The notes under the pieces are model-generated. The model ran no database searches. It was given only the letters and a program-made list of their open reading frames with translations, and had not been told where the DNA came from. Of a DNA stretch of 64,000 bases, positions 2 to 56,850 are shown piece by piece (within the stretch, counting starts at the first letter, position 1; every line of letters begins with the position of its first letter). The stretch comes from Limnochorda sp. LNt (GTDB taxonomy: Bacteria > Bacillota > Limnochordia > Limnochordales > Geochordaceae). A program made the translations under genes and the position numbers. Location of the stretch: contig NZ_CP141614.1 in the NCBI RefSeq assembly GCF_035593265.1, positions 1,488,001 through 1,552,000 of the forward strand. The letters run 5' to 3'.

Positions 2-979
2 GCCCCGCAGGTGGTGGAGGCCGCCCGGATGGGCGTCGAGGCCCTGGGGGGCGTGGGCGAGCGGCTGCAGCGGAGCGCGGGGCAGCTGGCGCAGATCTAC
101 CAGCGCCTGCAGACGGCCACGCCCGTGACGCCGTCGGGAGACGAGCTGGTGGTGGCGCACGTCAGCGACCTCCACAACAACCCTGCCGGCTTCGACCTGC
201 TGGAGGCGGTGGTGCGGCAGTTCGGCGTGCGCTTCGTCATCGACACGGGTGACATGCTGGACCTGGGCTCGGACCTGGAGCCCGTGCTGACGGACCGGAT
301 CCGGGCCCTGGAGGTCCCGTACCTGTACGTGGCCGGCAACCACGACACCCCCCGGTTGCTGGCCCTGCTGCGCTCCATCCCCGGGGTGATCGTCCTCGAG
401 GGGCAGGTGGTGGAGGTGGCCGGGGTGCGCGTGCTGGGGAGGCCCGATCCGCGGTCGGCCACCGATCGCCCGGAGGCGCTCTCCGAGGAAGAGGTGGCCG
501 AGGTGCGAGCGGCCGTCCTGGAGGCCGCCCGGGACGCTGCGGCACCGCTGGACGTCATCGCCGTCCACAACCACCGGGTGGGGCGCTCGCTGCCCCCCGG
601 GCTGGCGCAAGCCGTCCTCTTCGGACACGACCATCGCCTGGCGCTGGAGGTGCGCGACGGGACGGCCTACGTCGACGCCGGCAGCACGGGGGCCGAGGGC
701 CTGCGTGGACTGGAGCGGGAGGCGTTGCGTCCCTTCACGCTGGCCCTGTTGCGCTTCGACGTGCGGGAGGGCCAACCCCGGCTATGGGCCGTCGACGTGC
801 TGGCGCTGGATGCGCTCAGCGGCCAGCTGTCGCTGGAGCGGCGCCTGGTGGGGGCGGCGCACGCCGGTGGGGCACCGGCCTCGGAGGAAGGCGGTCGCGA
901 CGAGGCGGCCGGATCGCAAGGACAAGTCGAGTCCCATGTGGAACCCAAGGGGCCGGATGCCCCACGACCGACCGGGTGA
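2..979 (+). CDS. Metallophosphoesterase family protein, 5' end outside window
   Basis: Calcineurin-type metallophosphoesterase; the substrate is unknown. Counting from the GTG at 11, the metal-binding motifs stand in family order: SDLH (52-55), GD (80-81), GNHD (109-112), VHNH (185-188) and GHDH (205-208). The last ~50 residues are low-complexity and charged. The frame is open to the left edge, and what precedes SDLH looks like the end of a longer N-terminal part, so the real start is probably upstream. It ends 10 bases before the next gene, which suggests co-transcription. Family assignment is firm; function is not. Confidence 0.8.
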   Translation, partial: APQVVEAARMGVEALGGVGERLQRSAGQLAQIYQRLQTATPVTPSGDELVVAHVSDLHNNPAGFDLLEAVVRQFGVRFVIDTGDMLDLGSDLEPVLTDRIRALEVPYLYVAGNHDTPRLLALLRSIPGVIVLEGQVVEVAGVRVLGRPDPRSATDRPEALSEEEVAEVRAAVLEAARDAAAPLDVIAVHNHRVGRSLPPGLAQAVLFGHDHRLALEVRDGTAYVDAGSTGAEGLRGLEREALRPFTLALLRFDVREGQPRLWAVDVLALDALSGQLSLERRLVGAAHAGGAPASEEGGRDEAAGSQGQVESHVEPKGPDAPRPTG

Positions 980-54256: not shown

Positions 54257-54332
54257 TGGCAGGGGCGGCAGGACTTGAACCCGCAACCGCCGGTTTTGGA
54301 GACCGGTGCTCTGCCAGTTGAGCTACGCCCCT
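54257..54332 (-). tRNA. tRNA-Trp (CCA)
   Basis: Minus-strand cloverleaf: acceptor AGGGGCG / CGCCCCT, anticodon stem CCGGT/ACCGG with loop CTCCAAA (anticodon CCA), T-loop TTCAAGT, discriminator G, encoded CCA. 76 bases. Confidence 0.96.
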
Positions 54333-54343
54333 GCACAAGCAGG

Positions 54344-54373
54344 AGTATAACACGGCCCTCAGGCACGAGGCAA
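54344..54373 (-). promoter_or_regulatory. Promoter of tRNA-Trp
   Basis: Minus strand: TTGCCT (54373-54368), 18-base spacer, TATACT (54349-54344) preceded by TGT (extended -10). It ends 11 bases before the tRNA. Confidence 0.75.
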
Positions 54374-54995: not shown

Positions 54996-55586
54996 TTGGG
55001 CGAAGCTGGGGCCGCGCCCTACGATTACGCCCATCGTGCGGGCATCCATGCGGTCACGTGGGACGAGTTCGAGCGCCTGTGCCGCCAGGTCGCGGAGGCG
55101 CTGGCACCACGGCAGATCGACGGCCTGGTGGGGATTGCTCGAAGCGGGTTGATAGCCGCCACGCAGGTCGCGCTGAGCCTGCGCGTCGACCTCTACCCCG
55201 TCAGCCTCTCCCGCAGAAGGGGGGACCGCGTCGTCGAACGTCACCCCGTGTGGCTGCAGCGGCCGGAGTTGACGCTGGCAGGCCTGCGCATCGCCGTCGT
55301 GGACGAGATGGCCGACACCGGCGAGACGCTGGCGATGGCCGCCCAGGCCGTCCTTGATATGGGAGCGGCCTCGGTGGTCACGGCGGCACTGGCAGCGCAC
55401 ACGTGGGCGACGCCGAGACCGGACGTCGTGGCGCTGACCACCGACGCCCTGGTCATCTGGCCGTGGGGCCGGTACGTCCTGGACGGCGGCCGGTGGCTCT
55501 TGCACCCGGAATACGCCGAGGCGCTGCGTCTGCAGGGATACGACAACCCTGAGGCCGTCATCGGGGACGCCCAGCGCCCTCGATGA
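54996..55586 (+). CDS. Phosphoribosyltransferase domain protein
   Basis: Type I PRTase fold. IDGLVGIARSGLIAATQVAL and the PRPP loop VVDEMADTGETLAMAAQA are clear. The hood that sets the base specificity is not one I recognise; relatives are annotated as PRTase or xanthine/hypoxanthine-type enzymes. 196 aa. TTG at 54996 has GGGGGAGGT upstream. Confidence 0.8.
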   Translation: MGEAGAAPYDYAHRAGIHAVTWDEFERLCRQVAEALAPRQIDGLVGIARSGLIAATQVALSLRVDLYPVSLSRRRGDRVVERHPVWLQRPELTLAGLRIAVVDEMADTGETLAMAAQAVLDMGAASVVTAALAAHTWATPRPDVVALTTDALVIWPWGRYVLDGGRWLLHPEYAEALRLQGYDNPEAVIGDAQRPR

Positions 55587-55675: not shown

Positions 55676-55707
55676 CTACTGCGCTAAATGTCTCTTTAGC
55701 GCAGTAG
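55676..55707. repeat. Perfect 13-6-13 palindrome upstream of the Xer-type recombinase
   Basis: CTACTGCGCTAAA (55676-55688), a 6-base centre TGTCTC, and the exact reverse complement (55695-55707). Arms of at least 11 bp around 6 bp match the geometry of Xer/tyrosine-recombinase core sites (dif). The inner arms are A/T-rich in a GC-rich gap. There is no T-run, so it is a poor terminator. It does not match the usual dif half-site sequences. Confidence 0.6.
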
Positions 55708-55792: not shown

Positions 55793-55813
55793 GCTCGGGG
55801 GCTGCCCCCGAGC
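55793..55813 (+). repeat. GC hairpin before the recombinase gene
   Basis: 9-bp perfect stem GCTCGGGGG / CCCCCGAGC with a 3-base loop, 36 bases before the TTG start and 24 bases before the GGAGGG ribosome site. It could affect transcription or translation of the recombinase. Confidence 0.4.
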
Positions 55814-55848: not shown

Positions 55849-56850
55849 TTGGCCAGCAAGCCCCTGCCACCGGACGGCCGGCCGGCGCCGGAGGCTGCAC
55901 CCCCGTCCGCCGGCGCCTACGAGCCGGGCCAGCTCGACCGGGAGTCCCCGGGGGCAGCGGCGGACCCCCTGTTGGCGCGCTACTACCGGCATCTCCTGGT
56001 GGAGCGGGGGCTGAGCCGGCGCACCGCACGCGCCTACCTCGGCGACCTGCTCTTGCTCCAGCGATTCTGCGAGGGCCAGGGGCGCGCGCTGGCGCAAGCC
56101 GACGAGTACCTGCTGCGGGCCTTTCTCGAGTACATCTACGACCAGCGCCAGAACCAGGCGCCCACCCGGGCCCGCAAGGTGAGCGCCATCCGGGGCTTCT
56201 ATCGCTTCCTGGTGGAGGAGCGCCTCCTGGAGGCGAGCCCGGCCGAGCGCCTGCACAGCCCCAAGCTCCCCCGCCGCCTGCCCGTCTTCCTCACCGGTGA
56301 CGAGGCGGCCGCCTTGCTCGACGCCGCCGCCCGAGCCGGTACGGAGCCGCTGCGGGACCGGGCTCTGGTCGGCATGTTTCTCTATACCGGATGCCGGCTG
56401 AGCGAGCTGCTGGCCCTGAGGCTCGACGACCTCGACTTCGCCGCCGGGGCCGTCCGCCTCTTCGGCAAGGGGGGCAAGGAGCGGCTCGTGCCCATGCGCG
56501 AGGAGCTCGCGGCCATGGTGCACGCCTACCTGCCCCGTCGCCTGGAGCTCATCCGCAAAGCCCCGCGAGCCGCCCAGGACCGTCTCTTCGTCAACCGGCA
56601 CGGTCGCCCCCTGACGCCGTCCGGGGTGCGGTTTATCCTGCGGCGCATCGTGACCAGCCTGCCCCAGGTGCGCCTCTCCCTGTCGCCGCACAAGCTGCGC
56701 CACACCGTCGCCACCCTGCTCCTGCAGGCCGACGCCGACCTGCGCACCATCCAGGAGCTGCTGGGCCATGCCTCCCTGGCCACGACCCAGCGCTACACCC
56801 ACGTCCTCAACCGCCGGCTCAAGGAGCAGCTGGGCCGACTGCCCTACTGA
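55849..56850 (+). CDS. Tyrosine recombinase, XerC/XerD type
   Basis: Site-specific recombinase of the Xer group, which resolves chromosome dimers at dif. N-terminal core-binding SAM-like domain (LLARYYRHLLVERGLSRRT), then the catalytic domain: TGCRLSELLAL (Arg), GKGGKERLVP (Lys), SPHKLRHTVATLL (His, Arg), LGHASLATTQRYTHV (His and nucleophile Tyr). The normal Xer length is ~300; here 333 aa because of a ~40-residue Pro-rich N-terminus. TTG at 55849 with GGAGGG upstream. Lies between the palindrome and the SOS pair. Confidence 0.9.
   Translation: MASKPLPPDGRPAPEAAPPSAGAYEPGQLDRESPGAAADPLLARYYRHLLVERGLSRRTARAYLGDLLLLQRFCEGQGRALAQADEYLLRAFLEYIYDQRQNQAPTRARKVSAIRGFYRFLVEERLLEASPAERLHSPKLPRRLPVFLTGDEAAALLDAAARAGTEPLRDRALVGMFLYTGCRLSELLALRLDDLDFAAGAVRLFGKGGKERLVPMREELAAMVHAYLPRRLELIRKAPRAAQDRLFVNRHGRPLTPSGVRFILRRIVTSLPQVRLSLSPHKLRHTVATLLLQADADLRTIQELLGHASLATTQRYTHVLNRRLKEQLGRLPY

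Follow-up and report, generated by a model that had tools for sequence, protein, structure and literature searches.

A perfectly symmetric palindrome beside a xer gene is very probably a dif site served by one Xer recombinase in Limnochorda sp. LNt

A single-copy palindrome next to a Xer-type recombinase

We analysed a 64,000-nucleotide stretch of the chromosome of Limnochorda sp. LNt (contig NZ_CP141614.1, positions 1,488,001 to 1,552,000; called the window) and focused on a perfect 13-6-13 palindrome, CTACTGCGCTAAA-TGTCTC-TTTAGCGCAGTAG, at window positions 55676-55707. The palindrome sits between a gene for a phosphoribosyltransferase-domain protein (end 55586) and an ORF encoding a 333-aa tyrosine recombinase (start 55849). 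In bacteria, dif is the site at the end of replication where a recombinase separates joined chromosomes. Most bacteria employ two recombinases and an asymmetric dif, and this asymmetry lets FtsK govern which strands exchange first. Our analysis leaves very little doubt that the palindrome is dif in this chromosome, apparently served by a single Xer recombinase encoded beside it. The initial annotation of this DNA had suggested a possible non-canonical dif or core site suited to one recombinase, and had proposed copy number, nearness to the replication terminus, conservation upstream of the same gene and the absence of a canonical dif as ways to check it. That suggestion is supported by the single copy of the site, its location at the GC-skew switch, its conservation, the failure of a pattern search to find a canonical dif and the presence of one Xer.

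The letters and coordinates of the palindrome proved exact, and correspond to genome positions 1543676-1543707. The TTG start of the Xer ORF lies 142 bases downstream, at 55849, as had been annotated. The features are as follows.

55678..55688, + strand: left 11-bp arm, ACTGCGCTAAA, proposed binding site for one Xer subunit; the same in 4/4 genomes of the family
55689..55694, + strand: non-palindromic 6-bp centre, TGTCTC, where strands are proposed to exchange; shared by three genomes of the family, with TGTCTA in the fourth
55695..55705, + strand: right 11-bp arm, TTTAGCGCAGT, exact reverse complement of the left arm
55676..55707, no strand assigned: whole 13-6-13 palindrome; the outermost 2 bp per side are not fully kept in relatives
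55849..56850, + strand: the one Xer-type tyrosine recombinase, of 333 aa, with a TTG start, a SAM-like N-terminal domain and a catalytic domain
54996..55586, + strand: upstream neighbour, phosphoribosyltransferase-domain protein (PF00156), outside the module and bordering the intergenic space

Allowing up to 3 mismatches, we found one copy of the palindrome in the window (shuffled expectation 0) and one in the whole 3,019,339-bp single-contig genome, with no scattered copies. A single-copy site of ∼28 bp, with two inverted arms of ∼11 bp around a centre of ∼6 bp, has the general form of a Xer/dif site. Symmetry alone is weak evidence, because 800 kb of this GC-rich genome held six perfect 13-(6..8)-13 palindromes. 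The arms of the other five contain 9-12 G+C in 13 positions, and the dif candidate is the most A/T-rich (6/13); it is conservation in relatives that raises it above chance. A separate GC-rich hairpin, GCTCGGGGG-CTG-CCCCCGAGC, without a T-run, is present at window positions 55793-55813, between the dif candidate and the xer start.

The site lies at the GC-skew switch

GC skew in the window was mostly positive up to ∼56000 and negative beyond. Over 400 kb around the site, cumulative GC skew reached its maximum at genome position 1543496, 180 bp from the palindrome. With dnaA at 55.9-57.2 kb, the opposite point of the chromosome is at ∼1,566,200, and the site is ∼22.5 kb away from it (0.75% of the genome). 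Two further single-contig genomes could be analysed in the same way. In G002, a member of the same family, the site (1245093-1245120) is ∼16 bp, measured from its centre, from the local skew maximum at 1245122; in G005, from the sister family f3, the site at 1854568 and the local maximum at 1856483 are 1.9 kb apart. The distances from the point opposite dnaA are ∼57 kb (1.7%) and ∼55 kb (1.4%), respectively, and the orientation of the site and xer relative to dnaA is identical in all three genomes. Kono et al. report a strong correlation between predicted dif positions and the skew switch (PMC3025954). Location at the switch and close to the point opposite dnaA, as is general for Xer/dif systems, therefore gives the palindrome the properties expected of dif.

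A site at the strand-composition switch could also be a replication terminator (ter) bound by a Tus- or RTP-like protein. However, polar fork traps rely on multiple asymmetric sites that face in opposite directions, and here there is only one copy, whose 11-6-11 form and linkage to xer indicate recombination. We consider a ter site scarcely credible.

The site is conserved with xer in the family and in sister families

The sequence ACTGCGCTAAA-N6-TTTAGCGCAGT was present exactly once in each of the four genomes of the family (f1) examined. In the three relatives, it lies upstream of the orthologous Xer gene (73-76% identical), confirming that the arms are kept upstream of the same gene in close relatives (3/3). 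Identity to the window over the 28 bp is 100%, 100% and 96%, and the 100-bp flanks on either side are only 12-37% identical in aligned upstream DNA, the close pair G002/G003 excepted. The same site was found in Limnochordaceae bacterium Bu05 (L005), which is probably the same genome as G003.

Orthologs of this Xer in the sister families f2 and f3 show 47-52% identity, and a diverged 11-6-11 site lies upstream of the orthologous gene in 7/7 genomes. The G005 site, CCTCAACAAAA TTTGTC TTTTGTTGAGG, is perfectly symmetric, and that of the second f3 genome, G008, reads ACTCAACAAAA TGTTCA TTTCGTTAAGC. Sites in the five f2 genomes follow the form ACTCAACGAAA N6 TTTAATnnAGT, with arms differing at 2-4 of 11 positions.

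These diverged sites bear on whether the palindrome acts as RNA, serving either the upstream phosphoribosyltransferase gene or xer as an intrinsic terminator or a leader structure. The 13-bp stem is predicted to be strong on either strand in the window's genome (-32.2 and -25.9 kcal/mol; z ∼-5.8 and -5.3). No T-run follows the palindrome, the observation on which the initial annotation had already judged a terminator less likely. The hairpin is not conserved in f2, where the arm differences bring z to -1.97 in G012 and to 0.49, no better than shuffles, in G004, yet the site stays upstream of xer. Weakening or loss of the hairpin in f2 favours a protein-DNA site over an RNA structure. A terminator would also give no reason for a single copy at the skew switch in three genomes, and we rejected this explanation as very improbable.

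A further alternative is an operator, at which a dimeric regulator, perhaps Xer, would keep the xer promoter repressed. The palindrome does lie in the 5′ region of xer, with the site no more than ∼200 bp from the aligned gene start in 8/11 genomes, and autoregulation of xer could also arise as a by-product of Xer binding at dif. In G007, G010 and G013, however, the site is ∼1.3-1.5 kb upstream, and an operator leaves the coincidence with the skew switch unexplained. An operator as the main role of the palindrome is thus highly unlikely.

The f2 genome G010 carries a second dif-like site, ACTCAACAGAA CCATCA TTTAGTTGAGT, away from xer (L133 ∼1501-1528; G010:C37:19786-19813). This second site is surrounded by short ORFs of no assigned identity, and the contig also shows a match to a tyrosine recombinase; the site possibly belongs to a mobile element or plasmid exploiting the host Xer system. 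Use of the palindrome itself by mobile elements or viruses was considered and set aside, as none of the IMG/VR contigs contained the f1 or f2 site pattern.

The linked gene encodes an intact Xer recombinase

All residues of the catalytic set, R183, K207, H281, R284, H307 and Y316, are present in the window's Xer and invariant across the alignment, corresponding to the R-K-H-R-H/W-Y signature of Xer-family tyrosine recombinases, and most of the protein can be aligned with E. coli XerD. Its NCBIfam scores were below the curated cut-offs for XerC (270 bits; cut-off 335), XerD (253 bits; cut-off 330), XerA (183 bits; cut-off 220) and XerS (98 bits; cut-off 267), and comparison with XerH gave only 70 bits. 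By sequence, it does not belong to the XerS, XerH or XerA subfamilies. Several Xer proteins of the class that occur in pairs also fell short of the XerC and XerD cut-offs, which are strict, and these scores alone therefore do not separate the single Xer from paired ones.

The single-Xer orthologs form one clade with 100/100 support. Trees joining them to the XerC-like or the XerD-like group of a third family of the order besides f1 and its sisters, f4, were not rejected (p-AU 0.181 and 0.152). With a long stem as well, the protein may descend from one member of a pair or may have been acquired from outside. A phylum-wide search at E 1e-45 returned no further close protein, the best outside the order being 36-48% identical, and next to the genes of its nearest relatives from other phyla (for example L006, 42% identity) no convincing palindrome was seen. 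An FtsK gamma domain, as found in the translocase of bacterial Xer systems, is encoded at genome positions 1444933-1445109 (108 bits), ∼99 kb from the site.

One Xer-like gene and no canonical dif found

At E 1e-30, exactly one Xer-like gene was found in f1 and f2 genomes and in G008, and two in each of three f4 genomes; many other sampled families of the class have two as well. Four f2 genomes gave no other Xer match even at E 1e-3. The window's genome has two other PF00589 genes, of 428 and 509 aa; they reach only 80-87 bits against the best Xer model and resemble mobile-element integrases. The genome thus has one Xer-like gene and integrase-like genes in place of a XerC and XerD pair.

We searched for canonical dif with the pattern TNNNNNTAATNTANATTATGTNAANT, allowing 2 mismatches. 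It matched 2/3 f4 genomes and many genomes of other families of the class, and had no match in the f1, f2 and f3 genomes, the window's genome included. A canonical dif elsewhere in the genome was thus not found by a pattern that detects it in related families. Canonical-looking dif sites in f4, TTCGCAAAAT...ATTATGTNAAAT, are at G006:C17:204314 and G011:C23:60223, on contigs that also carry Xer genes.

The palindrome itself does not match canonical dif, a comparison in which the XerD arm, TTATGTNAANT, counts most. The annotated lack of resemblance to standard dif halves should be qualified for the left arm and centre, which agree with E. coli dif at 7/11 and 4/6 positions (TGCGC..AA TGT.T.) and with B. 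subtilis dif at 6/11 and 3/6 positions (reference sequences from PMC3025954).

Some points weigh against the assignment of the palindrome as dif. G005 has a second, divergent Xer-like gene. The canonical-dif pattern missed one f4 genome and several others with two Xer genes, and is therefore not fully sensitive. The skew maxima were taken from 400 kb around the site in the window's genome and from 200 kb in G002 and G005, the rest of the window's genome being covered by spaced samples only. In a search for FtsK-orienting polar sequences (KOPS), GGGNAGGG was mildly skewed toward the site (of the copies in 400 kb, 91 pointed toward it and 50 away) and numerous G-rich octamers showed a strong skew; this KOPS-like polarity is only suggestive and is confounded by coding bias. 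Codon and strand bias account for it equally well, and we did not retain a KOPS assignment. As to the second Xer-like protein of G005 (L123; G005:C1:2530340-2531236), it clusters with an f11 family protein, in a grouping with long branches.

Comparison with known Xer systems and a proposed mechanism

The system resembles single-recombinase Xer/dif systems of the XerS, XerH, XerA and XerL type in genomic content only, namely one Xer and a linked, co-conserved site. XerL/dif of Legionellales likewise has one recombinase and a terminus dif with uninterrupted, perfectly dyad arms, unlike canonical dif (10 bp in Legionella and 12 bp in Coxiella; PMC9765430). However, xerL is >400 kb from dif in Legionella pneumophila (PMC9765430), in a different phylum, whereas the gene is adjacent here, and the two are compared by dif geometry alone. 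XerH/difH of Helicobacter and Campylobacter also consists of a single recombinase and an adjacent site with a 6-bp centre (PMC5241119, PMC5357621). There, arm asymmetry sets the order of cleavage; identical arms rule this out in the present site, which makes it informative.

XerS/difSL of streptococci and lactococci is a module of one recombinase and an adjacent site as well, but difSL, 31 bp in length, has arms that are unequal and a centre of 11 bp (PMC5357621). Archaeal XerA/dif has one recombinase and an 11-6-11 dif that is sometimes linked, but is FtsK-independent, unlike the system proposed here (PMC5357621). Canonical XerCD/dif shares the 11-6-11 geometry at the terminus (PMC3025954), and XerC and XerD are the closest protein models, but two recombinases act there on unlike arms, whereas the present system has identical arms and a single Xer-like protein. 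A gene lying next to its site, as seen here, is known from XerS/difSL and XerH/difH (PMC5357621, PMC9765430). The best reading is a single-Xer module that resolves chromosome dimers, sharing its linkage with XerS/difSL and XerH/difH and its symmetry with XerL/dif.

In the mechanism that we propose, two subunits of the adjacent Xer would bind the two identical 11-bp arms. On formation of a chromosome dimer, two dif sites would pair, and the dimer would be resolved at the terminus through sequential strand cleavage and exchange at the edges of the 6-bp centre. FtsK is the probable agent that draws the sites together and switches the reaction on. With two identical arms, asymmetry between them cannot decide which strands are cleaved first; that order would have to be set by the asymmetric centre or by FtsK, or be random. 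The non-palindromic centre gives the site a direction.

On balance, we favour the view that a lineage of Limnochordaceae relatives swapped an ancestral XerC/XerD-dif system for a single Xer of separate kind and a dedicated site linked to it, with arms fully symmetric in some members, where the order and direction of strand exchange would be set by the centre or FtsK. If true, bacteria would have another class of single-recombinase system in addition to XerS, XerH and XerL. A natural dif with identical arms and one recombinase offers a clean system for asking how strand-exchange order is set. One order also contrasts a XerC/XerD-like pair with canonical dif against a single-Xer module, in which the arms differ along with the protein. 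In the literature searched, which left most subscription papers outside, nothing joined Limnochorda with dif or Limnochordia-type names with the replication terminus; the sole match for Limnochord and Xer was a paper on pit mud microbiota, unrelated by its title.

Elsewhere in the window, at ∼54270-54350, ORF translations resemble those seen across a tRNA gene, which marks this region as a candidate only.
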